Part shown: piece after piece, positions 2,560 to 35,620 of the stretch
Layout of the letters: every line of letters begins with the position of its first letter
How positions within the stretch are numbered: the first letter of the stretch is position 1
Source of the DNA: an uncultured Paracoccaceae bacterium
Lineage (GTDB): Bacteria > Pseudomonadota > Alphaproteobacteria > Rhodobacterales > Rhodobacteraceae
Assembly: GCA_947311485.1 (NCBI GenBank)
Contig: CAMZLM010000111.1
Location: forward strand, 1 to 38,877
DNA length: 38,877 nt
Reading direction: 5' to 3'
Translations under genes and position numbers: made by a program
The notes under the pieces: model-generated
The model's input: the letters and a program-made list of their open reading frames with translations, nothing else
What the model was told of the DNA's origin: nothing
Databases searched by the model: none

Positions 2560-2568
2560 GGGAAAACG

Positions 2569-4209: not shown

Positions 4210-4210
4210 C

Positions 4211-16927: not shown

Positions 16928-16935
16928 CGGCAAGG

Positions 16936-19043: not shown

Positions 19044-20392
19044 GCCGGATCAAGAGAATTTTAACCAGCGATGATCTGGGCGCACGGGCGATGCGGTCTT
19101 CGATGTGGACGGTGCTTGGCTATGGCCTGTCACAGGTGCTACGCCTGTTGTCGAACCTGATTTTGACGCGACTTCTTTACCCCGAAGCCTTTGGCATGAT
19201 GGCGCTGGTGATGGTGTTCATGCAGGGCTTGGCGATGTTCTCCGATGTGGGGGTTGGTCCCTCGATCATGCAGAGCAAACGCGGCGATGACCCGGATTTT
19301 CTGAACACGGCCTGGACCATTCAGGTAATGCGCGGGGTCGGTCTGTGGATTGCATCCTGTCTGATCGCCTATCCCATGTCGCTGTTTTATAATGAACCGC
19401 AATTGTTGCAATTGATCCCTGTTGCAGGGGTTGCGCTTTTGATTGCGGGGTTTAATCCAACACGGCTGGAAACGGCGCACCGACATTTGATGTTGGGGCG
19501 GGTAAGTTTGATTGATATCGCCACGCAGGCGATCGGTATTCTTGCTGCGATCGGATTTGCCTTGTTGACCAAATCCGTCTGGGCCTTTGTCTTGTCCAGT
19601 TTGGTGAGCGTGATTGTACAATTGTTTTTGAGTGATTATTTTTTGATCGGAGTGCGTAACCGGTTCCGCTGGGAGCCAACCGCCGTGCAGGAGTTGGTGC
19701 ATTTCGGCAAATGGATTTTCCTCAGCACGGTTGCCGGATTTTTGTTTTCTCAGGGGGACAAGGTTATTCTGGGTAAATTCATGTCGATTGAATTGCTGGG
19801 TATTTATAATATCGGCTATTTTCTGGCCAGTTTTCCGCTCGCGCTGAGCACAAATGTGATCCATAAAATTCTGATTCCGCTGTATCGGGAACGTCCACCC
19901 GCCGAATCACCGGAGAATTATCACAAAATGCGCATGGTGCGTTTTGGCGTGACGGCCAGCATTTTTGCAATGCTGATGGTTTTCGCCTTTGGGGGGATTC
20001 CGTTGGTTAACCTCCTGTATGACTCGCGCTATGTGGATGCGGGGACCATTGTTGTTGTGACGGCAGTGGTGCAAATCCCGTGGGTAATTGTTTTAACCTA
20101 TGATCAGGCGGCCTTGGCCTCGGGTGATTCTCGCCGGTTTTTTGTGTTGGCGGCGACCAAGGCTGTCGCCATGATTGGGTGTTTGATTGTAGGGGTGTCG
20201 AAAGGCGGCTTGTTGGGCGCATTGATCAGTCAGGGCATAGCAATTGTATTCGTGTATCCGGTGGTTGTATGGTTGGCACGGCGGCAATCGGCGTGGGATC
20301 CGTTGCATGATTTTGTTTTTGTTGTCTTCGGGACAATCGTCGGGGTCTTGGCAATTTGGGTCAATTTGGACGCAATATTGGCGTTGAAATAA
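19040..20392 (+). CDS. Wzx-type oligosaccharide flippase (MOP superfamily)
   Basis: Polytopic inner-membrane protein of 450 residues with about 12 hydrophobic segments. The N-terminal signature 'SMWTVLGYGLSQVLRLLSNLILTRLL' (cited in part: 'LSQVLRLLSNLILTRLL') followed by 'PEAFGMMALVMVF' and 'DVGVGPSIMQ' is typical of the polysaccharide-synthesis/MOP flippases. These move undecaprenyl-linked oligosaccharides across the membrane. The TTG start overlaps the upstream GT2 stop. It is followed by a 152-base AT-rich gap and then the PKS gene. Together with the Wzz-like gene at 33351 it indicates a Wzx/Wzy-dependent pathway. No Wzy polymerase is seen in the window. Confidence 0.88.
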   Translation: MSRIKRILTSDDLGARAMRSSMWTVLGYGLSQVLRLLSNLILTRLLYPEAFGMMALVMVFMQGLAMFSDVGVGPSIMQSKRGDDPDFLNTAWTIQVMRGVGLWIASCLIAYPMSLFYNEPQLLQLIPVAGVALLIAGFNPTRLETAHRHLMLGRVSLIDIATQAIGILAAIGFALLTKSVWAFVLSSLVSVIVQLFLSDYFLIGVRNRFRWEPTAVQELVHFGKWIFLSTVAGFLFSQGDKVILGKFMSIELLGIYNIGYFLASFPLALSTNVIHKILIPLYRERPPAESPENYHKMRMVRFGVTASIFAMLMVFAFGGIPLVNLLYDSRYVDAGTIVVVTAVVQIPWVIVLTYDQAALASGDSRRFFVLAATKAVAMIGCLIVGVSKGGLLGALISQGIAIVFVYPVVVWLARRQSAWDPLHDFVFVVFGTIVGVLAIWVNLDAILALK

Positions 20393-20544
20393 CCGGGCGT
20401 GTCTTGAGGAGCACATTAGGTTTTACATTTTACAATAACTTTGCCTTATTTTGGCCAGTAATTATTGGTTAATTTCTTGCGAATTCCCGTGTGTGTGCAG
20501 ATTTGGCGCGGTGATGTGTTCCAGAGTACGAGTGATGTTTTGTT
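20393..20544. promoter_or_regulatory. AT-rich leader of the PKS-NRPS-Wzz operon
   Basis: This 152-base gap is the longest non-coding stretch in the glycan locus and clearly richer in A+T than its flanks. It contains the tandem heptamer TTTTACA-TTTTACA (20421-20434) and an imperfect palindrome around AATTATTGGTTAATT (20459-20473). These are reasonable binding sites for a promoter of the downstream series, but I cannot name -35/-10 boxes with confidence. The ribosome-binding site before the PKS ATG at 20545 is weak. Confidence 0.4.
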
Positions 20545-23500
20545 ATGACGAATGATACAGTTAACGTAGATATTGGTGAAAATGATGTGGCTATCGTTGG
20601 GATGGCGGTACATGTTCCCGGTGCGCATACGATATCCGAGTATTGGCAAAATCTGCGTCATGGCATCGAAAGCATCACACGCCTGACCCCTGATGAATTA
20701 CAGGCGGCGGGTGAAGACCCCGGTAAAATGCTGCACAAGAATTACGTACCTGCAGCGGCCCTTTTGGATGGTTACAAAAACTTTGATGCGGATTTCTTTG
20801 GGTTTAGCCCCAAAGAAGCGGCGATCATGGACCCCCAGCACCGTAAATTCCTTGAGGAATCCTGGAATGCGTTGGAAAATGCCGGCCATCCGCCGGAGAA
20901 TTTTGACGGGCGGATCGGGGTGTATGCGGGCTGTGGCATGGGCAGCTATTTCTATTTCAACATTTGTTCCAATCCGGATCTTGTTGCGGATACCGGCATG
21001 TTTTTGTTGCGCCATACCGGCAATGACAAGGATTTTATGGCCACTCGCGTTAGCCATATTTTTGACCTTAAGGGGCCAAGCATCAATCTACAAACCGCCT
21101 GCTCCACTTCGCTTGTGGCAACGCATTTTGCCTGTCAAGCCCTGTTGACCGGCGAATGTGATATGGCGTTGGCGGGTGGCTCCACCATCGAATTGCCGCA
21201 GGGTCGTGGCTATATTTTCGAAGACGGGGAAATCTTGTCGCCGGATGGCCATTGCCATGCGTTTGACCATCGCGCCCAAGGGACGGTTTTTGGCAGTGGT
21301 GCAGGGGTGCTGGTCTTGCGCCGCTTGGCCGATGCGATTGCGGATGGTGACCATATCTGGAGCATCATCAAAGGCAGTGCCATCAACAATGACGGTGCTG
21401 CCAAGGCAGGCTACCTCGCACCCAGTGTTGATGGTCAGGCCGCCGCTATTGCCGAGGCGCAAATGATTGCCGGCGTGTCTGCCGACAGCATCGGGTATGT
21501 GGAATGCCACGGCACCGGCACCTACCTTGGCGATCCGATCGAGGTTGCCGCCCTGAGCGAAGCCTTTGGTCAGACAGCCGATAAAACCGGTTTTTGCCGG
21601 ATCGGCTCTGTGAAAACCAATATTGGCCATCTGGATACGGCGGCGGGGGCCGCCAGCCTGATCAAAACCGCGCTGAGCCTCCATCACAAGGAAATTCCGC
21701 CAAGTCTGGGTTTTGAAAAGCCCAATCCGGCGATTGATTTCGACAATAGCCCGTTTCAGGTGAATGCGGGTTTGCACGATTGGGTCAGTGACCGGCCCCG
21801 TCTTGCCGGTGTGAACTCGTTGGGGGTGGGTGGCACCAACGCGCATGTTGTGCTGCAAGAGGCCCCCATCCGCGGGCCATCGGACCCTTCGGATTGGCCG
21901 TTCCATTTGCTGACGGTTTCTGGGCGCACGAAAGCGGCGCTGGATGCGAATGCTGCTGCACTGGCTGTTCATTTGCGTACGCATCCGGAACAGCCATTGG
22001 CCGACGTGGCTTTTACCTTGAAACAAGGGCGTCGCGGTTTTGAATATCGGCGTGTTCTGGTTGCAGAAACCCATGCAGAAGCAGCCGACCTGTTGGAAGG
22101 CGACAACCTGCGCCGCGTGTTTACCCACACGGCGCTGGGCAAATCGCCCGAAGTGGTTTTCATGTTCCCCGGTGGCGGTGCGCAATATGTGGGCATGGCG
22201 CGTGATTTATATGAAACCGAGCCGGTTTTTCAGGAATGGATGGATCGCGGGCTGGATGTTTTGCAGCCAAAACTAACCTACGACATTCGCGCGCTGTGGT
22301 TGCCGGAGGATGACGGTACGCAGGCGGCGGAGCTGTTGAAAAAACCGTCTGTGCAGTTGCCGTTGATTATGATTGCCGAATATGCGCTGGCGCAGCTGTG
22401 GATGTCCTGGGGGGTGCAACCTGCTGTGTTGGTGGGGCATTCCATGGGTGAAAATACGGCGGCTTGTCTGGCCGGTGTGATCGGGTTTGAGGATTGTATC
22501 GGTCTTGTGCATCTGCGTGGGCAACTGTTTGATACCGTGCCGGCGGGGGGGATGTTGTCTATTCCGCAGGATGTGGAAACCATTCGTGAATACCTTGGGG
22601 AAACTCTTGATCTGGCCAGTGTAAATGCGCCGGAATTGTCTGTAGTGTCTGGGCCGGATGCCGATCTGGACGCCTTGCAAACCCGTTTGCAGGTGCAGGG
22701 GATCGAATGCCAGCGGATTGCCATCGATATTGCTGCCCATAGCCGTATGCTGGAACCGATCCTGCAACAGTTCGGTGACTATCTGCGGGGAATTTCCCTG
22801 TCGGCCCCGAAAATCTCGTTTCTGTCAAACCGTACGGGGGATCTTATTACCGACGCGCAGGCAACGGACCCTGAATACTGGGTCAGCCATTTGCGCAACA
22901 CCATTCAGTTTGCCGATTGCATGACCACGCTGTCCCGCAAAAAGGATCGTGTTTACCTGGAGGTCGGCCCCGGAAAGGCATTGTCGTCGCTCAGCCGGAT
23001 GCATCCGGAAATCAACGGCCAGCAAGTGTTGGCGAGCCTGCGTCATCCGGATGAAACCATTGCTGATGATATGTATTTTCTCGGCTTGCTTGGGCGACTC
23101 TGGGCGCTGGGCGTGGACATTGATTGGGCGCAAATCTGGGGCGAGGCCAAACGCCAGCGGGTTGTGTTGCCGAACTATGCTTTCCAGCGGGCGGAATATT
23201 TCATTGAACCGGGCAAAGGGGCTGTGGCTGCGGTTTCGAGCTTTCTGTCACGCACCGAAAACCCCGCCGATTGGGGGTATCGCCCGATATGGCGGCCACG
23301 GCTGGCCGATTGTGTGCTGGATGTAGCGCAAGAACTGGATCAGACGCCGCCGGAAACATGGCTGTTGCTGATGGATGAAATCGGTGTGGGGGCGCGTCTG
23401 GCCGATGCACTGCGCAAGGCCGGCCACGAGGTGATCGAACTGCGCACGGGTGATGCCTTTGCCCGCGAGGATGACACCCATTACGTTATTGCGCCGGAAC

Positions 23501-26500
23501 GGGGCCGTGAAGGCTTTGATCAACTATTTCAAGCGCTGCTGATCCATGGCACAGTGCCGAACAGGATTGTGAACCTGTGGCTGCTGACGGCGGATGAAAG
23601 TCACCGCCCGGGCAGCAGTTTTTTTCATCGCAATCAGGAACAGGGTTTTTACACGCAATTGTTTTTGGCACAGGCCATTGCCGAAGAAAACCTGCCAACG
23701 CCGTTGCATATGACGGTGCTGACCTCGGGCGCGATGCAATTGCGTGATGAAGGTTTGCCCTATCCGGAAAAGGCAACTGTCACGGGTCCGTGTCGGGTGA
23801 TTCCGCGTGAAATCCCGGGGGTGAGCTGTGCTGTGCTGGATGTGGATATCATTGCACGGTTTAAAAATGCAAAATCCCGTCAACGAGAGGCGGCGCTGGA
23901 TAAACTGGCGTTGCAAATCCTTGAGGATTTGTTTGCGCCGGCGCAAAACACAACGGCGGCGCTGCGGGCGGACAAGCGTTTTGAACAGGAATTCGGCCCG
24001 CTGGCTCTGCCGGATCAAACCAGCGTGCCGGTTTATAAATCTGGGGGCACTTACCTGATTACCGGCGGATTTGGCGGAATCGGGTTGACGTTGGCGGAAC
24101 AAATGATCCGCACCGCGAATGCAAATGTTGTGTTGCTGGCGCGTACGCCGTTGCCGGATCGGGCGGATTGGCCGAAATATTTACGCAGTCATGGGCCAAA
24201 GGATGTAACCGCCGCCCGTATTCGGGCCGTGCAGGAACTGGAGAGTTTTGGCGGGACGGTTTGTGTTGCGGTTGCCGATGTGTGCAACCTGCAGGAAATG
24301 ACGGAAACGATTGCCAAAATTCAGGAAAAGCTTGGCCCGATCAACGGGGTTGTCCATGCGGCGGGTGTTGTCGATGATGCGCCATTGCTGGCCAAAAACC
24401 CAAGCACGATCGAGGATGTTTTTGCCCCCAAAATTCACGGAACACAAATTCTGCACCAACTGTTTGCGGATGGTGTGCTTGACTGGCTGGTATTGTTTTC
24501 CTCGACGTCTACGGTGATAGCTCCGGCGGGGCAGGTGGACTATGTGGCGGCAAATGAATATCTGAACGCCTATGCCGCCAGCCGCAAGGCAGATAAAACC
24601 CGGGTTTTGGCAATTAACTGGGGCATTTGGAACGAAGTGGGCATGGCCGCACAGGCGCTGGCCGCGCGGGTCGGGAATGTGGAACCTGCACCGGTTGAAA
24701 AAACCGATCAGCCGCTCTTGGATGAAGCCAGTTTTGATGCACAGGGTAACCGGATTTTTTCGACCCGCTTCAGCCTTGGCAAGCATTGGGTTTTTGACGA
24801 ACATCGCACCTTGTCTGGCGCGGCGCTGCTACCGGGAACCGGCTATCTTGAACTGGCCGCCGAGGCCCTGCGTGCCCATGGCGAAGAGGGGGCCTTTGAA
24901 ATCCATGATTTGCTGTTTTTACGCCCTTTGCAGGTGGAAGAGCCAGCCCCGCGCGATATGCGTCTGACATTGGCGCGGTCCGGTGTGGGGTATTCCATGG
25001 AATTGCGCAGTGATTGTGTGCTGGACGGGCGCAAGGGTTGGCAATTGAATGCCCAGGCAAACCTGTCGCTGGTTCCATTGGCGGATGTTGCCCCGATCAA
25101 CCCGCAGGAAATTTTTGCCCGTTGCGGGGCTGAACAGGTTGCACCTGTCGGGGGGAGCCTGAAATCGCCACAGGAAAACCATTTGCGATTTGGCCCGCGT
25201 TGGCGTGTGTTGCAACGCATGGCCTATGGTCAAGGCGAAGGCATTGCCGAATTGGCCCTGCCGGAACAGGCGGGTTTGGATATTGAAAGCGGGTATCTCC
25301 TGCATCCGGCATTGCTCGATCTGGCGACCGGTTGGGCGATGGAATTGATTGCTGGCTATCAACCGACCCATTTGTGGGTGCCGGTGTCTTATGGGCGGGT
25401 ACGGGTGTATCAACCGTTGCCTGCACGGGTTTATAGCTGGGTTCGCAATGCTGCGGAAAACACGGCGGACGCACCATTTGCGCGGTTTGATATCACCCTT
25501 TGCGATGAAAACGGGGTGGTTTGTTTGCAGATTTCGGATTTTGCGATCAAGCGGCTGGAGGCCGGCTTTGCAACGCCGCGCCTGAACACGCATGAGGTCC
25601 GGTTCGACGATGAAACCACAAACGAGCCAGCCCCGCTGTCGCCAGCGGAACAGTGGTTGCAGCATAATTTGTCACAAGGGATTACACCGTCTGAAGGGGC
25701 CGCTGCCTTTATTGCCGCTTTTGGCACGCGGCAATCGCAAGTGATTGTTTCCTCTTTGCCGTTGCCGGCCCTTGTTGCGCAAAATGACAAGGCGGCGATG
25801 GAACAACAGGCCAGTGGGCAAAAATTTGAACGCCCCGAACTTGATTCCGACTTTGCTGAACCGGGCAATGATATCGAACGGACGTTGGCCGGTTTCTGGC
25901 AGGATTTGTTGGGTGTTGAACGGGTCGGTATCAACGACAGCTTTTTTGATCTGGGTGGACATTCCCTGATTGCGGTGCGGTTGTTTGCGATGATCAAGAA
26001 AGCCTATCAAGTGGATTTCCCGATTTCAATCCTGTTCGAGGCCCCGACAATTGCCAAATGCGCAAACCTGATCGGCGCGAAAGTTGGCTTTGGCACAGAA
26101 ACAGAAACACCAAGTGAAACACCTGACCAACCGACACAACGCTTTACCCATTTGGTTGCTATGCATGCAGGTGAAGGCGGTACGCAAACACCGTTTTTCC
26201 TTGTAGCGGGGATGTTTGGCAATGTGCTGAACCTGCGCCATCTAGGGCATTTGATCGGGGCGGACCGGCCTTTTTACGGGTTGCAGGCGCGCGGGCTTTA
26301 TGGCGACGAGGCCCCGCACACGGATATGAAACAAACAGCCGCCGATTATATTGCGGAAATGCGGATGGTGCAGCCCCATGGCCCGTATTTGATTGGCGGA
26401 TTTTCCGGCGGGGGAATCACGGCGTATGAAATTGCCCGACAGCTTGAAGATGCCGGTGAAAAAGTTTCCTTGCTGGTGATGCTGGATACGCCGTTACCAC

Positions 26501-26985
26501 AGCGTCGCCCGCTGACGCGGCGTGATCGGTGGATGATCCAATGGCTCGAATTGAAGAAAAAGGGCATGGGGTATCTGGGGCAATGGATTGCCAACCGGAT
26601 CAAGTGGGAAATCGCCAAACGCCGCCCGAGCGAGGCCGCCGCCAAGCAACAACACCAATTCCACGACACCGAAATCGAGGCCGCATTTTTGCAATCTGTG
26701 GCCGGGTATTCCTTGCAACGCTGGGATGGCCCGCTTGTGTTGTTCCGGCCACCGTTACAGGGGCATTGGCAGGTGTCTGCAGATCAATGGATCGACAGCC
26801 AGCGCGCCTATGTCTTCCCCGACAATGACTGGGGTCAATGGGCAAATCAATTGCAGGTATTCGAGGTTCCCGGGGATCATGATTCTATGGTTCTGGAACC
26901 CAATGTACGGGTGCTGGCCGCAAAAATAAAATCCTGTATCGAAGCGGTAGAAGACCCCGTTTCATACGGTCAGGCAGCGGAGTAG
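20545..26985 (+). CDS. type I modular polyketide synthase, KS-AT-KR-DH-ACP-TE
   Basis: Protein of 2146 residues, one module. KS (about 13-440): C186 in 'TACSTSL', H322 in 'ECHGTGT', H362 in 'NIGHLD'. AT (about 535-835): S633 in 'GHSMGE', H732 in 'AAHSRM'; this last motif is neither the standard malonyl nor methylmalonyl form. KR with its structural half (about 885-1375): 'TGGFGGIG' from T1173, S1320, Y1333 and N1337. DH (about 1395-1670): H1420 and D1592. ACP: S1807 in 'DLGGHSL'. TE (about 1865-2130): S1954 in 'GFSGG' and H2112 in 'GDHDSM'. There is no ER. KR precedes DH, unlike the common DH-ER-KR order. The module could extend an acyl chain once, reduce and dehydrate it, and release it. There is no loading domain, so it needs a partner, probably the NRPS two genes downstream. 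A GT2 gene starts 4 bases after its stop. Confidence 0.92.
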   Translation: MTNDTVNVDIGENDVAIVGMAVHVPGAHTISEYWQNLRHGIESITRLTPDELQAAGEDPGKMLHKNYVPAAALLDGYKNFDADFFGFSPKEAAIMDPQHRKFLEESWNALENAGHPPENFDGRIGVYAGCGMGSYFYFNICSNPDLVADTGMFLLRHTGNDKDFMATRVSHIFDLKGPSINLQTACSTSLVATHFACQALLTGECDMALAGGSTIELPQGRGYIFEDGEILSPDGHCHAFDHRAQGTVFGSGAGVLVLRRLADAIADGDHIWSIIKGSAINNDGAAKAGYLAPSVDGQAAAIAEAQMIAGVSADSIGYVECHGTGTYLGDPIEVAALSEAFGQTADKTGFCRIGSVKTNIGHLDTAAGAASLIKTALSLHHKEIPPSLGFEKPNPAIDFDNSPFQVNAGLHDWVSDRPRLAGVNSLGVGGTNAHVVLQEAPIRGPSDPSDWPFHLLTVSGRTKAALDANAAALAVHLRTHPEQPLADVAFTLKQGRRGFEYRRVLVAETHAEAADLLEGDNLRRVFTHTALGKSPEVVFMFPGGGAQYVGMARDLYETEPVFQEWMDRGLDVLQPKLTYDIRALWLPEDDGTQAAELLKKPSVQLPLIMIAEYALAQLWMSWGVQPAVLVGHSMGENTAACLAGVIGFEDCIGLVHLRGQLFDTVPAGGMLSIPQDVETIREYLGETLDLASVNAPELSVVSGPDADLDALQTRLQVQGIECQRIAIDIAAHSRMLEPILQQFGDYLRGISLSAPKISFLSNRTGDLITDAQATDPEYWVSHLRNTIQFADCMTTLSRKKDRVYLEVGPGKALSSLSRMHPEINGQQVLASLRHPDETIADDMYFLGLLGRLWALGVDIDWAQIWGEAKRQRVVLPNYAFQRAEYFIEPGKGAVAAVSSFLSRTENPADWGYRPIWRPRLADCVLDVAQELDQTPPETWLLLMDEIGVGARLADALRKAGHEVIELRTGDAFAREDDTHYVIAPERGREGFDQLFQALLIHGTVPNRIVNLWLLTADESHRPGSSFFHRNQEQGFYTQLFLAQAIAEENLPTPLHMTVLTSGAMQLRDEGLPYPEKATVTGPCRVIPREIPGVSCAVLDVDIIARFKNAKSRQREAALDKLALQILEDLFAPAQNTTAALRADKRFEQEFGPLALPDQTSVPVYKSGGTYLITGGFGGIGLTLAEQMIRTANANVVLLARTPLPDRADWPKYLRSHGPKDVTAARIRAVQELESFGGTVCVAVADVCNLQEMTETIAKIQEKLGPINGVVHAAGVVDDAPLLAKNPSTIEDVFAPKIHGTQILHQLFADGVLDWLVLFSSTSTVIAPAGQVDYVAANEYLNAYAASRKADKTRVLAINWGIWNEVGMAAQALAARVGNVEPAPVEKTDQPLLDEASFDAQGNRIFSTRFSLGKHWVFDEHRTLSGAALLPGTGYLELAAEALRAHGEEGAFEIHDLLFLRPLQVEEPAPRDMRLTLARSGVGYSMELRSDCVLDGRKGWQLNAQANLSLVPLADVAPINPQEIFARCGAEQVAPVGGSLKSPQENHLRFGPRWRVLQRMAYGQGEGIAELALPEQAGLDIESGYLLHPALLDLATGWAMELIAGYQPTHLWVPVSYGRVRVYQPLPARVYSWVRNAAENTADAPFARFDITLCDENGVVCLQISDFAIKRLEAGFATPRLNTHEVRFDDETTNEPAPLSPAEQWLQHNLSQGITPSEGAAAFIAAFGTRQSQVIVSSLPLPALVAQNDKAAMEQQASGQKFERPELDSDFAEPGNDIERTLAGFWQDLLGVERVGINDSFFDLGGHSLIAVRLFAMIKKAYQVDFPISILFEAPTIAKCANLIGAKVGFGTETETPSETPDQPTQRFTHLVAMHAGEGGTQTPFFLVAGMFGNVLNLRHLGHLIGADRPFYGLQARGLYGDEAPHTDMKQTAADYIAEMRMVQPHGPYLIGGFSGGGITAYEIARQLEDAGEKVSLLVMLDTPLPQRRPLTRRDRWMIQWLELKKKGMGYLGQWIANRIKWEIAKRRPSEAAAKQQHQFHDTEIEAAFLQSVAGYSLQRWDGPLVLFRPPLQGHWQVSADQWIDSQRAYVFPDNDWGQWANQLQVFEVPGDHDSMVLEPNVRVLAAKIKSCIEAVEDPVSYGQAAE

Positions 26986-26989
26986 AGAC

Positions 26990-28009
26990 ATGAAAAAACC
27001 GACTTTGCTTACTGTTATCCTGAATTACAAAACTGCTAACATGACCTTGGAATCCCTTGCCGCTGCATTGATGTCCACACAAGGGATTAACGGGGAAATA
27101 ATCATTGTCGACAATGATTCCCAAGACGGCTCTTTTGAAAAGCTGACCAAGGCCGTGCAAGAAAAAGGCTGGTCTGCCAACGGGCGGGTGCGGGTGTTGC
27201 AATCCGGGCGAAATGGGGGGTTCGGGGCCGGAAACAATGTCGGGATCAAGGCCGGATTATCCAACGGTGACAGGCCGGATTACGTTTATATTCTGAATTC
27301 GGATGCTTTTCCCAATCGGGATACCGTTTCGGAATTGTTGAACTATCTGGAGACACACCCCAAGGTCGGATTCGCCGGTAGTTATATTCATGGTCAGGAC
27401 GGCGAGCCGCATTTAACCGCGTTTCGGTTTCCGTCCGTTGCCGGTGAATTTGAGGGCGCGATCAAGTTTGGCCCGATAAGTCGCCTGTTGAAAAACAGCA
27501 TCGTACCGCTGCCTTTGCCAAAGGAAACCTGTCAGGTTGATTGGCTGGCGGGGGCCAGCCTGATGATGCGGCAGGCGGTGCTTGACCAGATCGGGCTGTT
27601 TGACGAACGGTTTTTTCTGTATTTTGAGGAAACCGACCTATGCCGGCGTGCTTTACAGGCCGGTTGGCCCACCGTTTATGTGCGCTCAAGCGAGGTTGCG
27701 CATATCGGATCGGTGTCTACCGGCATGCGGAATTGGGAACGAATGCCACAATACTGGTTTGATTCCCGCCGGCATTATTTTGTTAAAAACCATGGCCCGT
27801 TTTACGCCAAGCTGGCAACAGCGGCGCATTTACTGGGCGGGGCGTTTTGTTATTTGCGGCACGCAGTACAAGGTAAAACACCCCAAGGCCCAAAGCGGTT
27901 TTTACGGGATCTCGCCCGACATAGCCTTACTCAGGATCGCCACCCATTGCGTTATCAAAACCACCCGGTATCAAAGAAAACCTGCTTTGCAGGTCAGGAG
28001 AAAAAATGA
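26990..28009 (+). CDS. GT2-family glycosyltransferase (rhamnosyltransferase-like) between PKS and NRPS genes
   Basis: Protein of 339 residues. 'LTVILNYKTANMTLESL' (cited in part), 'IIIVDNDSQDGSFEKL', the donor-binding 'GRNGGFGAGNNVGIKA' and 'ILNSDAFPN' give a GT-A core of the WbbL/rhamnosyltransferase type. 'WLAGASLMMRQAVLDQIG', 'FDERFFLYFEETDLCRRA' (ED-type catalytic region) and 'HIGSVST' complete it. The C-terminal 40 residues are basic. It lies 4 bases after the PKS stop, and its own stop overlaps the NRPS start (ATGA), so it is bound into the PKS-NRPS transcript. It could glycosylate the PKS/NRPS product or simply build the glycan. This physical placement is the best evidence linking the two chemistries. 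Donor sugar unknown. Confidence 0.87.
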   Translation: MKKPTLLTVILNYKTANMTLESLAAALMSTQGINGEIIIVDNDSQDGSFEKLTKAVQEKGWSANGRVRVLQSGRNGGFGAGNNVGIKAGLSNGDRPDYVYILNSDAFPNRDTVSELLNYLETHPKVGFAGSYIHGQDGEPHLTAFRFPSVAGEFEGAIKFGPISRLLKNSIVPLPLPKETCQVDWLAGASLMMRQAVLDQIGLFDERFFLYFEETDLCRRALQAGWPTVYVRSSEVAHIGSVSTGMRNWERMPQYWFDSRRHYFVKNHGPFYAKLATAAHLLGGAFCYLRHAVQGKTPQGPKRFLRDLARHSLTQDRHPLRYQNHPVSKKTCFAGQEKK

Positions 28010-31000
28010 AAAACCCGATTGCTAATATATATCCCTGTGTTGTGATGGGTAATGAATCCTTGCTCATTCAATGTTCCGAAATCCTGCTGGCACGCGGGCA
28101 TGATATTCAGGCAGTTGTGTCGCGCAATACCGATATTATTCAATGGGCGACCTCGAAAAACCTACCGGTGATTGCGCCGGGGGCAGGTTTGGCCGAAGGC
28201 CTGAAAAACGTGCATTTTGATTGGCTGTTTTCCATTGCCAATCTGGATATTATTCCGCAATCGGTTTTGGATCAGGCCGCACAGGGGGCGGTGAATTTCC
28301 ATGACGGCCCATTGCCTGCCTATGCCGGATTGAACACGCCGGTCTGGGCGATTATCAATCAGGAGAAACGGTACGGAATTACATGGCATGTGATTACGAA
28401 TGGTGTCGACAAGGGCGATATTGTCGAACAACGTTTGTTTGATGTGTCGGTAACGGATACGGCCTTTACCCTTAACACAAAATGTTTCGGGGCCGCGATT
28501 GATAGCTTTGCACCCATGTTGGACAAGCTTGATGTCGGCCCGTCTGCTTTTGTGAAGCAGGATCTGAGCTTGCGGCGGTATTTTGCAAAAAATGACAGGC
28601 CTGCAGCGGCGGGGCGGCTGGATTTCAACCGTCCGGCAGAAGAACTGGTTGCGCTGGTGCATGGTCTGGATCACAGCGGCTATTGGAATCCGCTGTCTTG
28701 TGCAAAAATTCAGGCAGGAAATGCCGTGCTGCTGGTCGGGGATGCAGAGACCGTGGCCGTTGGCAATGCAGATGCGAAACCGGGGTTGGTGGAACGTGTT
28801 TCAGATACGGAAATAACTGTGGCCACCGGATTTGGGTCGATTGTTTTGCGGGGGGTGCGGGATCAAAATGGTATGCCTGTTGCGCCTGATGATGTGGTGC
28901 AACAGGGCGATGTCCTTTTGTCGCCAAGCCCGGCAGAGATAGAAGAATTAAATCGCCAAACGACGATGTTGGTAAAAAACGAACCGTTTTGGCGTCAGAA
29001 GCTGGCGACGTTCCGGCCTGCAATTTTACCTATGGCGCAGGGACCGGAGCGGGATCAAAAACCGAAATCTGTGGCTGTAAACGGGGAAAACGCTGTGCAC
29101 ACCTGGCGCGGGGTGGTGTCGCTCTGGGCTGAAAAGCTCTCGGAAACGGGGGGTGTTTCGATTGCGTATCGGGATCAATCACAGGGGGCGGATATTTCGC
29201 CAGCCTATCACGCGGATTGGTTGCCGGTTGAATATGATCGCAATGCCAAAACCTGCGGCGATGCTTTGGCGCAACAGGAGGACATGTGCGCAACACTTCT
29301 TGCCAAAGGTCCCTATGCGCGGGATTTGATTGCGCGGGATCCGGCGATTGATCAATTCCGGATGCCGGATATCGGCGTTGATGTGGGGGGGGATGCCGGT
29401 TTATTGCCGGGGACAGTGGTGACGCTGGCGATTTCCGCAAATGGCGCGGCCATGCTGTGGTATGATGCGAACCGGATTGATGCGGATACGGCCAATCGGC
29501 TCGCGGCGCAACTGACCGATCTGGCCTCCAGAATGGCGCGCGGCGAATTGGCTGGGCAGAGCTTTGCCGATGTGTCCATTTTGCCTGAAACCGAACTGGA
29601 TCAGGTTCTGGTTGGGTGGAACCGCACTCAGAAAGACTATGAAAATATCTGTATCCATCAGCTGTTTGAACAGCAGGCTGCCAAAATACCCACGGCTGAA
29701 GCATTGGTTTTCGAAGGCCAATCCCTGACCTATCAGGATCTGAATGTCCGTGCCAATCAGGTTGCGCATGTGTTGCGCGATAACGGTGTGATACCCGGCG
29801 TCGCGGTCGGCCTGTTTACCGAGCGGTCGCTTGATATGATGGTGGGGGCCTTGGCAATTCACAAGGCCGGCGGGGCCTATGTGCCACTGGATCCGGACTA
29901 TCCGGCAGACCGGATTGCGCATGTTATCAGTGATAGCCAGGCCCCTGTTATTCTGTGTCAGGCCCATCTGGCTGATCGGCTGCCGACCCATTCCGCGGCT
30001 GTGGTGCAAGTTGATGCGGATCCCCGAATTTCGGCAGCCCCGACAACCAATCCGGACAGTGATGTTTCGCCAGAGGATTTGGCCTATCTGATTTACACCT
30101 CCGGCTCTACTGGATTACCCAAAGGCGTGATGGTTGAACATCGCAACGTGGCGAATTTCTTTGCCGGAATGGATGAACGGATCAATCACAATCCCCCCGG
30201 TGTCTGGTTGGCGGTGACCAGCCTGTCGTTTGATATTTCGGTGCTGGAGCTGTTCTATACCCTAGCGCGGGGCTTCAAGGTGGTTTTGGCCTCTAACGAA
30301 AGCAAAATAACGCCTTCTGCCGGCGGGATAACGATTTCGGATCAGAAAATGGATTTCAGCCTGTTTTTCTGGGGCAATGATGACGGTGTTGGCCGAGATA
30401 AATACAAGCTGTTGCTGGAGGGCGCGAAATACGCGGATCAGCACGGGTTTTGTGCGGTTTGGACGCCGGAACGGCATTTTCATGCCTTTGGCGGGCCGTA
30501 TCCCAACCCGTCTGTGACCGGAGCGGCCGTTGCGGCTGTGACCCGTAACCTTGCCGTGCGTTCGGGCAGTTGCGTTGCGCCATTGCACCACACGGCCCGC
30601 ATTGCCGAAGACTGGGCCGTGATTGATAACTTGACCAACGGGCGGGCCGGTTTGGGAATTGCAGCGGGCTGGCAGCCGGACGATTTTGTTTTGCGGCCGG
30701 AAAACACGCCGCCAAACAACAAGCCGGCAATGTTCAAAGCGATCGAGGATTTGCGCGCTTTGTGGCGCGGTGAAACGGTGGATTTTCCGACCAAAGACGG
30801 CACGCCTTTTGCCGTGACCACCTTGCCACGTCCTGTGTCCAAAGAACTCCCGATCTGGGTGACGATTGCGGGCAACCCCGATACCTGGCGTGAAGCAGGT
30901 GAAATCGGGGCCAATGTGCTGACCCACCTTTTGGGGCAAACCATTGATGTCGTGGCGGACCGGATCAAGATTTACCATGCTGCTCTGCGCAATGCGGGCC

Positions 31001-32643
31001 ATGATCCGGCAGATTTTACCGTGACCATGATGTTGCACAGCTATGTTGCCGACGATCGGGATCATGCCCGTGAAATTGCGCGTGGGCCGATGAAATCCTA
31101 TATGGGGGCGGCAGCCGGGCTGATCCGTCAATGTGCGTGGGAATTTCCGGCATTCAAGCGTCCCGAAGGCGTGAAAAACGCATTTGAACTTGATTTGGCA
31201 ACACTGGGGGAGGACGAGGTCGACGGTATCCTAGAATACGCCTTTGAGCGCTATTTTGAAACCGCCGGTTTGTTTGGCTCCAAGGCAGATTGCTTGCAGC
31301 GTGTAGAACAGCTCAAGGCCATCGGGGTGAGCGAAATTGCCTGCCTGATTGATTATGGCATTCCGGTTGAAACGGTTCTGGAAGGGCTGGTGCCCTTGGC
31401 CGAGGTGTTGGCGATTGCCAATCAGCCAACCCAAATCGCGGCGGATGATTTTTCAATTGCGGCACAAATTCAACGTCACAAGGTAACCCACCTGCAGTGC
31501 ACGCCCAGCATGGCACGCATGTTGATTAACGAACCGGAAACGCACCGTGCATTTGGCCGATTGCAACACGTGTTGATTGGCGGGGAACCCCTGCCCGGGG
31601 AGCTGGTTAAAACGCTGTCCGGCATTACCACGGCATCGATTGAAAACATGTACGGGCCAACGGAAACCACGATTTGGTCTTCAACCGAAACGGCAAATAC
31701 TGCCGAAGGCCTGGTCAATATCGGGACGCCTATCGCCAATACACAGCTCTATGTGCTGGATTCCGAATTTAAGCCGGTCCCGATCGGTGTGCCCGGTGAA
31801 CTGTACATCGGCGGTGACGGTGTGGCACGGGGTTATTGGCAACGGGCGGATTTGACGGCGGAACGGTTTTTAATCAACCCCTTCAGGACGGGTGGACGCA
31901 TGTATCGCACAGGTGATCTGGTGTGTCGTCGCGCAGATGGTAGAATCGATTTTCTGGGTCGCGTCGATAACCAGATCAAATTGCGGGGGCACCGCATTGA
32001 ACTGGGTGAAATTGAAACAACGCTGGAAGGGGTCGATGGCCTGCAACAAGCCGTAGTTGTTGCCCGTGAAATAAGCGCCGGTGACACCCGTTTGGTAGCC
32101 TATTTCGTGGCGGACCAGGCAATTCAGGATGCCGATTTACGCATGCGTTTGGCGGCCTGTTTGCCGGGTTATATGGTGCCATCGCATTTTGTACAGTTGG
32201 ACAGCTTTCCGCTGACACCCAATCAAAAGGTCGACCGAAATGCCTTGCCGGCACCTATGCTTGCCGCGCAGAGCAAGGCGGAAGTAACCTCAAAACCGAT
32301 GGCGCAAAATTCTGTCGAAGAAAAAATCGCGCAGGTTTGGACGCGGGTGCTTGGGGTGCATAACATTGGGTCGGATGATAATTTCTTTGATCTGGGCGGG
32401 CATTCCTTGCTTGCCGTGCAGGCGCATCGTGAAATCAAGGCGGATTTAGGCATCAGCAAGCTGAGCATCACCGACATTTTCCGGTTCCCTGTTCTTTCGG
32501 CATTGGCGGCACGGCTTAGTGACCAAACCGACACCTCTGTTGCAAAAAAACCGGCAATGGATGTGGCCCATCAAGCGCAGCAGCGTAGCGACGCAATGTC
32601 CAAACGACGCGCCATGCGCGCGCGGCGTGGGGGTAACGGATGA
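28006..32643 (+). CDS. NRPS: formyltransferase - partial condensation - adenylation split by luciferase-like monooxygenase - PCP
   Basis: Protein of 1545 residues. Residues 1-300 are a Met-tRNA-formyltransferase-like domain with N97, H99 and D135 in the expected catalytic spacing ('NFHDGPLP', 'GVDKGDI'). Residues 318-540 resemble only the C-terminal half of a condensation domain; no HHxxxDG is present. The A domain starts near 546: A3 'YTSGSTGLPKG', A4 'SFDIS' with D743. It is interrupted at about 780-1140 by an FMN-type luciferase-like monooxygenase of the MupA/Atu3671 kind ('ERHFHAFGG', 'GRAGLGIAAGW'). It then resumes with A5 'NMYGPTET', A6-A9 and A10 'NQKVDR' (K1408). The PCP serine is S1467. 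My alignment of specificity positions gives D-I-L-H-L-G-M-I-W, close to the glycine pattern DILQLGLIW. No thioesterase; the C-terminus is very basic. The product is presumably passed to the PKS. Confidence 0.9.
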   Translation: MKNPIANIYPCVVMGNESLLIQCSEILLARGHDIQAVVSRNTDIIQWATSKNLPVIAPGAGLAEGLKNVHFDWLFSIANLDIIPQSVLDQAAQGAVNFHDGPLPAYAGLNTPVWAIINQEKRYGITWHVITNGVDKGDIVEQRLFDVSVTDTAFTLNTKCFGAAIDSFAPMLDKLDVGPSAFVKQDLSLRRYFAKNDRPAAAGRLDFNRPAEELVALVHGLDHSGYWNPLSCAKIQAGNAVLLVGDAETVAVGNADAKPGLVERVSDTEITVATGFGSIVLRGVRDQNGMPVAPDDVVQQGDVLLSPSPAEIEELNRQTTMLVKNEPFWRQKLATFRPAILPMAQGPERDQKPKSVAVNGENAVHTWRGVVSLWAEKLSETGGVSIAYRDQSQGADISPAYHADWLPVEYDRNAKTCGDALAQQEDMCATLLAKGPYARDLIARDPAIDQFRMPDIGVDVGGDAGLLPGTVVTLAISANGAAMLWYDANRIDADTANRLAAQLTDLASRMARGELAGQSFADVSILPETELDQVLVGWNRTQKDYENICIHQLFEQQAAKIPTAEALVFEGQSLTYQDLNVRANQVAHVLRDNGVIPGVAVGLFTERSLDMMVGALAIHKAGGAYVPLDPDYPADRIAHVISDSQAPVILCQAHLADRLPTHSAAVVQVDADPRISAAPTTNPDSDVSPEDLAYLIYTSGSTGLPKGVMVEHRNVANFFAGMDERINHNPPGVWLAVTSLSFDISVLELFYTLARGFKVVLASNESKITPSAGGITISDQKMDFSLFFWGNDDGVGRDKYKLLLEGAKYADQHGFCAVWTPERHFHAFGGPYPNPSVTGAAVAAVTRNLAVRSGSCVAPLHHTARIAEDWAVIDNLTNGRAGLGIAAGWQPDDFVLRPENTPPNNKPAMFKAIEDLRALWRGETVDFPTKDGTPFAVTTLPRPVSKELPIWVTIAGNPDTWREAGEIGANVLTHLLGQTIDVVADRIKIYHAALRNAGHDPADFTVTMMLHSYVADDRDHAREIARGPMKSYMGAAAGLIRQCAWEFPAFKRPEGVKNAFELDLATLGEDEVDGILEYAFERYFETAGLFGSKADCLQRVEQLKAIGVSEIACLIDYGIPVETVLEGLVPLAEVLAIANQPTQIAADDFSIAAQIQRHKVTHLQCTPSMARMLINEPETHRAFGRLQHVLIGGEPLPGELVKTLSGITTASIENMYGPTETTIWSSTETANTAEGLVNIGTPIANTQLYVLDSEFKPVPIGVPGELYIGGDGVARGYWQRADLTAERFLINPFRTGGRMYRTGDLVCRRADGRIDFLGRVDNQIKLRGHRIELGEIETTLEGVDGLQQAVVVAREISAGDTRLVAYFVADQAIQDADLRMRLAACLPGYMVPSHFVQLDSFPLTPNQKVDRNALPAPMLAAQSKAEVTSKPMAQNSVEEKIAQVWTRVLGVHNIGSDDNFFDLGGHSLLAVQAHREIKADLGISKLSITDIFRFPVLSALAARLSDQTDTSVAKKPAMDVAHQAQQRSDAMSKRRAMRARRGGNG

Positions 32644-33347
32644 TACATTCGGCCCCTGATATTAGGGCTGCAGAACTGGCACAAATGGCACGAAAAATAT
32701 TGCCTGCCACTGTGTCTGTTGCAACGGGTGATCCGCGAATGGCGGGGGGGGAATTGCATCCGCTGGAACAAGGATACGCCGTCAAAATGAGCCGGAAACG
32801 GCGGGTTGAATTTATGGTTGGGCGCGGTGTTGCACGACGGGCCATGGCTCCGTTCGGTTACGCGACCGCCCCGATTCTTGTGGCACCGGATCGCGCGCCT
32901 GTTTGGCCGGAAAATGTTGTTGGCAGTCTCTCTCATTCCACAACAGCCTGCATTGCGCTGGTGGCTTCGGCGCGGAATTTTGTATCGCTTGGCGTGGATC
33001 TGGAGGAGGATCTTCCCCTTGATGCGGAATTGATTCCGGAGGTGTGCCAAGATGTCGAAATCAGGTGGTTGTCAGATCATCCACCGGTTCGGCGTGCACG
33101 GTTGGCGCGTCTGGTTTTTAGCGCCAAGGAAACGGCCTACAAAGCCCAATATCCGCTAACAGGGGAACTGTTCGGGTTTGATCGGTTTTCGGTTTCTTTT
33201 GACTTTGCAAAAGGATTGTTTGCCGCCAGATTTAACGGTGCAATGCGCGGATTTACGGATAATCAATGTCTGAACGGGTGTTTTCAGATCGGGAATGGAT
33301 TAATTCTGACAGCTATGACACTGACTTCCAGCGACTGGAAAGGATAG
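32640..33347 (+). CDS. 4'-phosphopantetheinyl transferase (Sfp/EntD type)
   Basis: Protein of 235 residues. It transfers phosphopantetheine from coenzyme A to the carrier-protein serines, here presumably S1807 of the PKS and S1467 of the NRPS. Diagnostic motifs are 'VGSLSHS' (G95-S100), the metal-binding 'GVDLEE' (D120, E122) and 'FSAKETAYK' (K163, E164), all in correct order and spacing for the EntD-like branch. The ATG overlaps the NRPS stop (ATGA), and the stop lies 3 bases before the Wzz gene. A dedicated activating enzyme inside the operon supports the assembly line being functional. Confidence 0.92.
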   Translation: MIHSAPDIRAAELAQMARKILPATVSVATGDPRMAGGELHPLEQGYAVKMSRKRRVEFMVGRGVARRAMAPFGYATAPILVAPDRAPVWPENVVGSLSHSTTACIALVASARNFVSLGVDLEEDLPLDAELIPEVCQDVEIRWLSDHPPVRRARLARLVFSAKETAYKAQYPLTGELFGFDRFSVSFDFAKGLFAARFNGAMRGFTDNQCLNGCFQIGNGLILTAMTLTSSDWKG

Positions 33348-33350
33348 AAT

Positions 33351-34628
33351 ATGGACCTTGTCCAAACAATAAACGAGACTGTGAATATGCTGTTGCGCCG
33401 GATCCCCGTGTGGGGACCGATTGCGGTGTTGGGGGTCGTGGCATCTATCTTTTATGCGTTTTCTTTGCCGCGTTTGTATGAAACCACTGCGGTGATCCAA
33501 ATTGGCAACTCAAAGCTGTCGGATCAGGTAGGTTCTCAAAATGCGGGGGCATCGCTGTCACAGTATTTGCGTAAAATCGAACAGCGGATCATGGCCCGGG
33601 ATAATCTACTGGAAATCATCGCAAAGCATAAATTATTTCAGGACGGCCCTTCGATGTCACCCAGCGATCAGGTGTTGGCGTTGCGACAGGCGACGCGGAT
33701 CGAGCAACTTACCGATCCGGGGCAAGCATGGCGTCCGGATGCGGCACCTTCGGCGTTGACCATAACTGTGCGAATGGGGGATCCGGAACTGGCGGCGGTG
33801 ATTGCAAATGATTTTGTCAATCGTGTGTTGGTGCAAAACCGGTCTGAACGGCAACAACTGGCCAACCGTGCATTGCGGTTTTTTGAGAGCGAAGAGAAGC
33901 GCATCGGGGCAGAAATTGATCAGCTGGATGCTGAAATTGCGTCGTTCAAGCGCAAGAATGCAGCATCTTTACCGTCTGCTTTGTCCACACAACAAGAGAA
34001 ACTTGTTGCGTTGGAAGCGGCGCTTTTGGAAGTGGAGCAGCAGATTGTCGAGCTGAATAATTCCAAAGAAAAATTACGCAAGGATGATTTGGCCAAACAG
34101 CTTTTGCTAGCAGAAGACCAGCGTCAGTTGATTGAAGGCCGTCGCCGGGAAATTCAGAATGCATTGGATAATGCTCCGAAAGTGGAGAAAGACTTTAATC
34201 TGTTGCAACGAAAACTGACCCAGCTTGAAGATCAATTTTCGGTCATAAGTAAAAACAGAGCCGAGGCTGAAATTAGCCAAATTTTGGAAACAGGTCAACA
34301 ATCCGGGCTGCTGTCGGTGTTGGAAACGGCCCTTGTACCGGAACACCCTGTTTCCCCGAATCGCAAAAAAATTGTGGTCATAGGCGGAATTGTCAGCCTG
34401 TTGGTGGCTGGTGGTCTGGTGTTGCTGTTGGAATTGCTGAATCCGGTGATCCGAACTTCTGCACAATTGGAACGTCAGCTAAAGATAATGCCGGTGGTCG
34501 CCATTCCAGTTGTTAAAACCCCGCGGGATTCGTTTCTTCGACGGCTGCGGTTGGCCGTATTGGCAACTACTGATGCCTTGGGAGTTCGGCAATTTTCGCA
34601 ATTTGTAAAAAGTCGAATTAGGTCTTGA
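33351..34628 (+). CDS. Wzz-type polysaccharide chain-length/co-polymerase protein
   Basis: Inner-membrane protein of 425 residues. A first helix lies at about 20-40 ('VWGPIAVLGVVASIFYAFSLP' region), followed by a large periplasmic part with a long coiled coil (about 165-315). A second helix at about 339-363 is preceded by the proline-rich 'PEHPVSPNRK', a hallmark of PCP/Wzz proteins. The cytoplasmic tail (about 60 residues) has no Walker motifs, so unlike Wzc it carries no kinase. The separate CpsD-like gene on the opposite strand (34732-35592) probably supplies that function. It controls chain length or export of the glycan. It is the last gene of the series beginning at 20545, 3 bases after the PPTase gene, and converges with the kinase gene across a 103-base gap. 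Confidence 0.88.
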   Translation: MDLVQTINETVNMLLRRIPVWGPIAVLGVVASIFYAFSLPRLYETTAVIQIGNSKLSDQVGSQNAGASLSQYLRKIEQRIMARDNLLEIIAKHKLFQDGPSMSPSDQVLALRQATRIEQLTDPGQAWRPDAAPSALTITVRMGDPELAAVIANDFVNRVLVQNRSERQQLANRALRFFESEEKRIGAEIDQLDAEIASFKRKNAASLPSALSTQQEKLVALEAALLEVEQQIVELNNSKEKLRKDDLAKQLLLAEDQRQLIEGRRREIQNALDNAPKVEKDFNLLQRKLTQLEDQFSVISKNRAEAEISQILETGQQSGLLSVLETALVPEHPVSPNRKKIVVIGGIVSLLVAGGLVLLLELLNPVIRTSAQLERQLKIMPVVAIPVVKTPRDSFLRRLRLAVLATTDALGVRQFSQFVKSRIRS

Positions 34629-34731
34629 ACCCGTAATCGAAGGAAATTGAGGCACATACGCGCCGCGCTTCCGGAGTGCTACGCGCGATGGGCACAACCG
34701 GTAGCGTCATAAGATAAAAGGATGGGGCGAT
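34629..34731. other. convergent intergenic gap, no confident terminator
   Basis: The 103 bases between the converging Wzz and CpsD-like genes contain CGCGC and GCGCG arms about 18 bases apart (near 34660-34685), without a T-run. This could be a bidirectional transcription stop of a non-canonical kind. Nothing else is seen here. Confidence 0.2.
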
Positions 34732-35592
34732 TTAAAACAAACGACTGGAAATACTTTCATCCTGATTGAGAATAACCCCAAGCAAAGGCACTTGTTCGCC
34801 AAGCAGTTTTTCTGTTTTGCGGATGTCAGTGGCCTTTGTTTTACCGCCACCGACGACCAACAGAACACCGTCCACTTGTGGCAAAAAGGAAAGAACATCA
34901 TCGTATTTCAAAACGGCAGGCAAGTCGTATAAAATTACATCCGGTTCCAGCTCATGCCCCATAATTGTCAGGGTGTCGTGGGTGGAATTGCGCTGTAACA
35001 GTTCTGATGCATCGGTTTCCGGTTTGCTGTTCAGGCCAACCATCAGGTTTTTTCCGATCTTACAGAAAAATTCATGTTCGCGTAGCTGCCCGTCCAAAAA
35101 ATGGCGCATCCGGTTGCGTGCGGGGACGCCCAAAGTCGTGGCCATGCCGGGGTTTCGCAGGTCGATATCCATCAATACCGTGCGGGTGTTGTCGCGGCGT
35201 GCAAGGCTCAGGGCCAAATTGATCGCGACAAATGTTTTACCGCATCCCTCTGTCGGAGAGGTGATCGCCACGCGTTTCCAGCCTTTTTCCTTGAGCGTGT
35301 GCATCAATTTGGTGCGCAACAGGTCAAATGCTGTTTGAGCCGGGTGGTTTTGATCGCCGTTCAAAACCCGGTTTTGGAGCAAATGCTCCGGATTGAGCTT
35401 AACCGCTTCATAGGCATCCCAAGGATCATGAGACACAATCATTGGCAGGTTTTTATAGGAAAACGGGGACGGCCCCCGACTGCGTTGCTTTCGCGGCGGT
35501 GGCAGATCGGCCATTTTAGTAAGCCGGTCGCTCCAGTCAGATGTGTTGTCCTCGGTCATGGCCTCAATGGTATCCATAGTTTCTCTATTCAT
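34732..35592 (-). CDS. CpsD/CapB-like bacterial tyrosine-kinase ATPase without a tyrosine tail
   Basis: Cytoplasmic P-loop ATPase of about 286 residues. The first 70 residues are polar and proline-rich. Walker A lies near residues 112-120 ('SPTEGCGKT'), Walker A' in 'VLMDIDLRNPGM' and Walker B in 'DVILYDLPAVL', the BY-kinase/CpsD pattern. These kinases work with a Wzz-type membrane partner to control polysaccharide polymerisation and export. The C-terminus ends 'DESISSRLF' with no tyrosine cluster, so it may not autophosphorylate in the usual way. Start: ATG at 35592 or 35577 (the latter has 'agaga' upstream). A TTG at 35661 would overlap the upstream fusion gene. It is transcribed toward the Wzz gene and follows the fusion gene after 28 bases. 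MinD/ParA relatives are less likely given the neighbours. Confidence 0.82.
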   Translation of the reverse strand: MNRETMDTIEAMTEDNTSDWSDRLTKMADLPPPRKQRSRGPSPFSYKNLPMIVSHDPWDAYEAVKLNPEHLLQNRVLNGDQNHPAQTAFDLLRTKLMHTLKEKGWKRVAITSPTEGCGKTFVAINLALSLARRDNTRTVLMDIDLRNPGMATTLGVPARNRMRHFLDGQLREHEFFCKIGKNLMVGLNSKPETDASELLQRNSTHDTLTIMGHELEPDVILYDLPAVLKYDDVLSFLPQVDGVLLVVGGGKTKATDIRKTEKLLGEQVPLLGVILNQDESISSRLF

Positions 35593-35620
35593 AAACAGGA
35601 AAGATTTGTTGTAATTATGG

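Follow-up and report, generated by a model that had tools for sequence, protein, structure and literature searches.

A gene cluster listed as an antibiotic-type orphan probably decorates or caps a bacterial sugar coat

An orphan cluster of four genes, encoding a nonribosomal peptide synthetase (NRPS), a polyketide synthase (PKS), a glycosyltransferase and a phosphopantetheinyl transferase (PPTase), was reported in 2015 from 28 of 57 roseobacter genomes, its product being uncharacterised (PMC4337385, citing Martens et al.). Another publication lists a PKS, Inhi_1972, and an NRPS, Inhi_1974, a numbering that leaves one gene between them (PMC4062626). The nearest functional precedent is provided by the capsule PKSs RkpA and WcbR (PMC3908369, PMC4245539). 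Here, we analysed a contig of an uncultured Paracoccaceae bacterium (C111; 38,877 bases, taken whole and called the window in the following; genome of 3.07 Mb in 222 contigs, 96.7% complete), which carries a PKS, a family 2 glycosyltransferase (GT2), an NRPS and a PPTase at 20545–33347 on the plus strand. Judged by gene types and described layout, this four-gene core is almost certainly the cluster of PMC4337385, and Inhi_1972/Inhi_1974 are, by their description, probably the same cluster. The layout, for which the initial annotation of the window knew no described example, had therefore been reported before. We lean towards the view that the four genes encode a two-protein assembly line dedicated to surface polysaccharide, which would make a non-sugar acyl substituent of the glycan.

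Families were assigned to the window proteins with Pfam and NCBIfam profiles. Between 20545 and 34628, the genes for the PKS, a GT2 (GT2b), the NRPS, the PPTase and a Wzz-type polysaccharide co-polymerase follow each other on the plus strand with intergenic distances of +4, −4, −4 and +3 bases, so that gene coordinates and profile matches bear out the order, strand and spacings given by the initial annotation, which had read the region as a PKS-NRPS assembly line built into a polysaccharide export operon. Conservation of this order was assessed in 80 named loci (77 from Rhodobacterales, three from Hydrogenophaga), which are the best 80 of at least 587 confirmed relatives in a scan of named genomes, i.e., the nearest relatives and not a random sample. 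PKS, GT2 and NRPS are contiguous and codirectional in 76 of the 80, an adjacency far beyond chance; the exceptions are L134 and L148, which are without this pairing, and L072 and L103, where the PKS reading frame stops 1.6–1.8 kb early. The PPTase adjoins the NRPS in 72 loci. PPTase and Wzz, on the other hand, are adjacent (−150 to 300 bases) in 21 loci only, with gaps mostly of 70–240 bases, and both are present on one strand in 28. The proposed order thus recurs in other genomes as far as the PPTase, and in a minority of loci as far as Wzz: the strictly coupled unit comprises four genes, Wzz was rejected as a general member of the core, and its tight coupling, to which the initial annotation had pointed, is a local and not a general feature. 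When positions 16900–35700 were scanned, promoter-like sites occurred at background level (14 versus 14.2 in shuffled sequence) and terminator-like sites numbered 39 versus 27.0 expected (sd 5.8), a result that speaks neither for nor against a single transcript.

The neighbourhood of the core ties it to glycan genes. The flippase and the further glycosyltransferases that the initial annotation placed at the flanks are present, namely a Wzx flippase (19040–20392, plus strand; PF13440), GT2a (18210–19043, plus; PF00535), a GT4 (16936–18210, minus; PF00534) and GT2c (37732–38697, minus; PF00535). They are joined by the co-polymerase (33351–34628, plus; TIGR03007-like), a CpsD-type tyrosine kinase (34732–35661, minus; TIGR03018 and TIGR01007, below cut-off) and a fused Gfo/Idh/MocA oxidoreductase and SDR epimerase of the nucleotide-sugar type (35621–37696, minus; PF01408, PF01370). 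Flippase, co-polymerase, kinase and glycosyltransferases, by which a Wzx/Wzy locus is recognised, are hence all found, Wzz and the kinase with scores below the curated cut-offs (for Wzz, PF02706 just under it with 24.3 versus 25.5 bits, and TIGR03007 107.3 versus 278.85). No Wzy polymerase or Wza exporter was found among the window proteins scanned, the search for them being confined to the window; among the named loci, homologs of Wzy-like membrane proteins are present in 42 of 80, with Wzy_C itself below cut-off, and a Wza-type protein lies near the locus in G573. Within the fetched flanks, at least one other homolog of the window glycan genes accompanies the core in 68 of the 80 named loci, Wzx or Wzz in 57. 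Nine of the remaining 12 have WecB/TagA/CpsF-type, sugar or other glycosyltransferases, bringing glycan-type neighbours to 77 of 80, some through weak matches. Exopolysaccharide-type loci are likewise seen on annotated plasmids.

Co-occurrence was examined in 101 genomes (the own genome and 100 relatives). An NRPS ortholog (E = 0) was detected in 18 of them and the PKS in the same 18; the NRPS is partial or split in four (G025, G029, G060, G041). The window flippase (E ≤ 1e-80; weakest match 1.7e-131) was found in 17 of these 18 genomes and in none of the 83 others, and the same counts, 17/18 versus 0/83, were obtained for an RTX protein encoded upstream in the window (E ≤ 1e-60). The fused MocA-SDR protein (E ≤ 1e-150) was present in 11/18 versus 0/83. 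In G058, the RTX protein and the NRPS are on different contigs, the NRPS being flanked by more than 330 kb of its contig on either side. One further genome, G054, with a split NRPS (best E 7.9e-135) and without a match to the window flippase or the RTX protein, was left out of the 18. The tie to a surface glycan that the initial annotation had suggested is, accordingly, supported both by neighbourhood and by co-occurrence, and the genes form a conserved, glycan-linked assembly line.

The NRPS (28006–32643, plus strand; 1545 aa) has an unusual architecture, in which a formyltransferase (F) domain, a linker, an adenylation (A) domain interrupted by a MupA/Atu3671-type flavin monooxygenase (LLM) and a carrier (PCP) follow each other; no condensation (C) domain and no thioesterase (TE) domain were matched in the protein. 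The F domain (28006–28905; PF00551, PF02911) consists of two subdomains and bears the triad N97, H99 and D135, which is kept in all 87 NRPS rows compared (the window, the 80 named loci and six plasmid loci, including the distant Aliiroseovarius and Methylobacterium). The linker (28906–29640, residues 301–545) has no HHxxxD motif and no match to the condensation profile PF00668. This motif is missing between F and A in all 87 rows, and PF00668 had no match in the own genome either (96.7% complete). The condensation domain with HHxxxDG that marks a canonical elongating NRPS is, therefore, not found, and what is found is the LgrA-type start, an F domain with the N/H/D triad directly ahead of A and PCP. 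The first part of the A domain (29665–30306, residues 554–767; PF00501) covers motifs A1–A4; the LLM (30355–31407; TIGR04020, 463.5 bits versus a cut-off of 244.45) lies between A4 and A5, these flanking motifs having been read by eye; the second part (31426–32229) carries, by alignment, the glycine code DILQLGMIWK, and the PCP (32320–32517, residues 1439–1504; PF00550) closes the protein. The code is conserved as DILQ-x-GM-I/V-WK in 87 of 87 rows.

LgrA is the best PDB match of the whole NRPS, and both LgrA modules are the best matches of the second half of the A domain, where module 2, which we take to be the glycine module, scores above the level of module 1 (200 versus 174 bits). An AlphaFold (AF2) model of residues 1–540 reached a pLDDT of 90. 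ArnA and Met-tRNA formyltransferase were the best PDB folds for its F part; the match listing did not resolve the fold of the linker. Published work lends support to the glycine code, since exactly DILQLGMIWK is given for four glycine A domains with a monooxygenase (MOX; PMC12283262), and the MOX of glycine modules is described to hydroxylate the alpha carbon in the solanimycin, myxothiazol and melithiazol pathways, with cleavage following in two cases (PMC10204066). The window NRPS combines the same two features, glycine code and embedded flavin monooxygenase. Besides these domains, the NRPS has a basic C-terminal tail, in which 81 of 86 rows show a motif of the RR-x-MR type and the mean net charge is +4.7 (85 rows longer than 1450 aa), and the PKSs begin with a mildly acidic stretch (mean excess 2.3, 64 sequences); as a docking pair, the two ends are suggestive only. 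Two genomes, G054 (contig C309) and G041 (contig C3), have a split or interrupted NRPS, G041 together with a split PKS, by decay or assembly error. Near F-bearing NRPSs, we also noted four NuoF-like and two FdhD-like proteins, as in formate dehydrogenase clusters, among the 71 flank proteins scanned (of 112 listed); they are credited to L086, L096, L137 and L143 by a guess from gene sizes, L137 lying outside the scanned set.

The PKS (20545–26985, plus strand; 2146 aa) matches the profiles of a type I enzyme with the order KS-AT-KR-DH-ACP-TE: KS (20581–21714, residues 13–390; PF00109, PF02801), AT (22156–22971, residues 538–809; PF00698), KR (24046–24636, residues 1168–1364; PF08659), which stands ahead of DH (24712–25563, residues 1390–1673; PF21089, PF14765), ACP (25882–26070, residues 1780–1842; PF00550) and TE (26266–26982, from residue 1908; PF00975). 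The checked catalytic residues of all six domains are invariant in 77 of 77 aligned PKSs (the window, 71 named loci and five plasmid loci), including the GHSMGE motif of AT, the His and Asp of DH and the Ser, Asp and His of TE. No profile match to an ER domain was found in the window PKS, so that a saturated chain is not expected from it by itself. GT2b (26990–28009, plus; PF00535) separates PKS and NRPS, and the NRPS is followed by the Sfp-type PPTase (32640–33347, plus; PF17837, PF01648), besides which the own genome has a single further PF01648 match, on contig C8. By domains and motifs, PKS, NRPS and PPTase look intact.

Since an F domain opens the NRPS and a TE closes the PKS, the working order would be NRPS, then PKS. 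Two natural arrangements agree with such an order: on a Deinococcus actinosclerus plasmid, a separate formyltransferase, A-LLM-PCP and KS-AT-KR-DH-ACP-C are encoded consecutively beside capsule genes, and in Aliiroseovarius sp. M344 (L155:15992-29731) F-A-LLM-PCP is followed by KS-AT-KR-DH-ACP-C-A-PCP-TE. From these elements we infer the chemistry of the product. The PPTase would arm the carriers of both proteins; the A domain would load glycine, F would formylate its amine, and the LLM would hydroxylate its alpha carbon, possibly with a split to a glyoxylyl thioester. The oxidised or formylated glycine unit could then be taken as starter by the KS, elongated by one extender unit and processed by KR and DH to a C4 unsaturated acyl group, which the TE would release onto a sugar acceptor, either the surface glycan or its precursor. 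GT2b may act on the acylated sugar or beside that step, Wzx would export the unit, Wzz and the kinase would set the chain length, and the secreted SGNH/glycosidase-like RTX protein could trim or remodel the product. More tentatively still, and with doubts that outweigh our confidence, we propose that the substituent belongs to a class of its own, new to glycans: a C4 acyl group with a formamido or aldehyde function, built from oxidised glycine and a malonyl unit, that would be added to polysaccharide before export by a pair conserved across Rhodobacterales, Hyphomicrobiales, Comamonadaceae and a Deinococcus.

Relatives found by sequence belong mostly to Rhodobacterales. In wider draws that include the own genome, the NRPS was recovered at E ≤ 1e-150 from 7 of 385 genomes at class level and from 16 of 398 at phylum level. 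The PKS-NRPS pairing recurs in Hyphomicrobiales, in Hydrogenophaga (Comamonadaceae) and in the Deinococcus capsule locus, and in Shinella, Aminobacter, G573 and G681 PKS and NRPS point away from each other yet remain neighbours. In a tree of 40 of the 102 NRPS rows, the close family forms one clade of 28 rows with an SH-aLRT support of 100, and the nesting of Hydrogenophaga within Rhodobacterales points to horizontal transfer. Loci with glycan context group together on this tree (2 changes versus a shuffled mean of 8.2), with G746 and G708 labelled non-glycan only for lack of a window glycan homolog within 20 kb and M. bullatum labelled glycan mainly through its nearness to G343. Additional NRPSs near the same pair were seen in Hydrogenophaga (AMP-ligase-PCP-C-A-PCP-TE) and, by annotation, in Paracoccus sp. 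Arc7-R13 (L124:18901-24846, L194:1-3846), which may mean longer products at some of the glycan loci.

Several observations weigh against a dedicated role in the glycan. The initial annotation had stated that its proposal would fall if many genomes had the pair but lacked glycan genes. This was looked for and is not the case in the close family, but the distant pairs of Aliiroseovarius, G402 and G720 stand among nos, TPP-enzyme, GST, MFS or TRAP genes (that of Aliiroseovarius sp. M344 has nos genes on one side and an XrtD exosortase on the other). A link of the assembly line to glycans therefore does not hold for all branches. L076, L105 and L143 have no glycosyl- or sugar transferase other than GT2b, L105 and L143 being short contigs and L076 having an acyltransferase only, and part of the 68 loci rests on weak GT4, Wzz or kinase matches. 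In the co-occurrence sample, G004 has the NRPS without the window flippase, its own flippase being 29% identical, G055 has it without the RTX protein, and the flippase count becomes 17/19 once the split NRPS of G054 is included. The Fisher p of 2e-18 for flippase and NRPS ignores phylogeny, descent and linkage, and physical linkage and shared descent can yield most of the co-occurrence. Further, a glycosylated small molecule exported by the flippase would show an identical neighbourhood. That the product might be such a diffusible, perhaps glycosylated molecule of an ordinary secondary-metabolite cluster, merely sharing an island with polysaccharide genes, is also suggested by the Aliiroseovarius-type pairs and by more distant LLM-NRPSs of Streptomyces, Burkholderia and Nostoc, whose clusters resemble ordinary secondary metabolism. 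We nevertheless regard this as rather unlikely, as flippase and RTX protein each follow the NRPS, glycan neighbours recur over separate gene arrangements and orders, and neither an exporter dedicated to metabolites nor a resistance gene or a regulator is among the operon genes, just as the initial annotation had remarked.

The initial annotation had suggested a product that decorates, primes or terminates the glycan, and an assembly line working for the glycan may contribute in other ways than by decorating it. A further point against the proposed chemistry is that the sequence gives neither the extender unit nor the number of PKS cycles. An iterative PKS might make a lipid or acyl primer or anchor, a product that carries the sugar chain, by analogy with RkpA/WcbR and their location in capsule gene clusters. 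A KS-AT-KR-DH-ACP protein without ER could iterate to a polyene, and a glycosyltransferase adjoins the PKS in 76 of the 80 named loci. The same lack of an ER speaks against a saturated chain, a glycine-loading NRPS with an LLM would be unexpected for a plain lipid carrier, and several loci already have ordinary sugar (undecaprenyl-type) transferases; overall, a primer or anchor seems improbable to us. The F domain raises a separate question, because its sequence is nearer to sugar N-formyltransferases than to the LgrA F and retains the C-terminal subdomain, so glycine may not be its substrate, which is a further point against the proposed chemistry. F might instead formylate an amino sugar of the glycan, with A-LLM-PCP separately making an oxidised glycine unit. 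The nearest sequences and folds, those of sugar N-formyltransferases and Met-tRNA formyltransferases, would fit, as would the occurrence of F as a separate protein in Deinococcus. However, F and the A domain behind it form one protein, an arrangement shared with the LgrA initiation module, none of the 87 rows has lost the F triad, and the Aliiroseovarius-type pair retains F among non-glycan neighbours, which makes this variant very unlikely in our view. An acyl substituent of the glycan thus remains the reading we prefer.

Two other ideas were discarded. A link to exosortases was considered for XrtD/VPLPA-CTERM genes near some loci, but TIGR04152 was unmatched in the own genome; it exceeded the cut-off in 12 relatives, among which only G004 has the NRPS ortholog. 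As LLM-NRPSs serve fabrubactin-type clusters, a siderophore was considered as well, but no siderophore gene was present among the annotated neighbours of the window and plasmid loci. The flavin monooxygenase FbnE is named in PMC12971057.

Among the other window genes, the RTX protein (14036–16927, plus strand; 963 aa; PF00353) comprises an SGNH/DUF4886-like N-terminus, a TIM-barrel glycosidase-like middle and an RTX C-terminus; its AF2 model has a pLDDT of 74, with DUF4886 and GH10/GH5 as best folds, weakly matched (E 2e-4 and weaker). A stand-alone SGNH/DUF4886-like gene was matched in 35 of the 80 named loci; in 31 of these the match starts at most 300 bases from where the NRPS or PPTase gene ends, and in L151:23321-24259 and L175:22599-23495 the small gene overlaps the PPTase or NRPS gene at its end. 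The small protein may be an esterase or acyltransferase working on the product. Its counterpart may be the N-terminal part of the RTX protein, although comparison of the two sequences gave no significant match (best E 0.16) and the Pfam scores stay under the cut-off. The SGNH domain was seen fused in only 4 of 80 named loci, many fetched flanks ending inside the RTX gene. Far upstream (1738–6855), genes for an FGE-type protein, a Usp protein with two PCP_red domains, a radical SAM-SPASM protein with PCP_red and an amine-oxidase/protoporphyrinogen-oxidase-like protein look like a haem- or redox-cofactor locus with no relation to the glycan.

In 2015, the cluster was listed as an orphan of secondary metabolism for roughly one in two roseobacter genomes examined (PMC4337385); assignment to a surface glycan gives it a testable function and could explain the lack of any assigned free product. 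PKS-NRPS genes of this class would then be a matter of the cell envelope and of attachment to marine surfaces and no longer of antibiotic mining. If the C4 acyl substituent is real, the assembly line would serve the cell surface and not the secretion of a free metabolite, possibly providing the coat with reactive groups for adhesion.

Compared with known systems, the window resembles the rhizobial and Burkholderia capsule clusters (PMC3908369) in that a type I PKS with a single module lies among capsule or exopolysaccharide genes. Its NRPS shares with LgrA the F-A-PCP start module. It differs from LgrA in having an LLM and in an F domain that keeps its C-terminal subdomain; module 1 of LgrA loads valine. 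RkpA-type PKSs have an ER and are not known to have a TE or an NRPS partner, whereas the window PKS has no ER match, a TE with an intact triad, KR before DH and an F-bearing glycine NRPS as partner. The glycine A domains of the myxothiazol, melithiazol and solanimycin pathways likewise combine glycine code and embedded flavin monooxygenase; as described, they belong to elongation or termination modules, while the window NRPS is a starter module. Inserts are described between A8 and A9 in PMC12283262, and the one found here is between A4 and A5. The PuwE monooxygenase of PMC4219810 is outside any glycine A domain. The roseobacter orphan cluster has the same four gene types as the window and was found here in loci of Leisingera, Phaeobacter, Sulfitobacter and Ruegeria; in the available text, PMC4337385 and PMC4062626 treat it as secondary metabolism, without domain anatomy, glycine code or glycan link. 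A full-text literature search, with subscription papers outside its reach, returned no publication linking the cluster to glycans, and PMC3806328, PMC3141670 and PMC4148975 yielded nothing pertinent either. Beyond the published roseobacters, we found it in Paracoccaceae, Hyphomicrobiales and Comamonadaceae. Within the literature searched, this wider reach and the surface-glycan assignment appear to be new, the layout itself being known already; what the present analysis adds to the roseobacter cluster is its domain anatomy and its tie to glycan genes.

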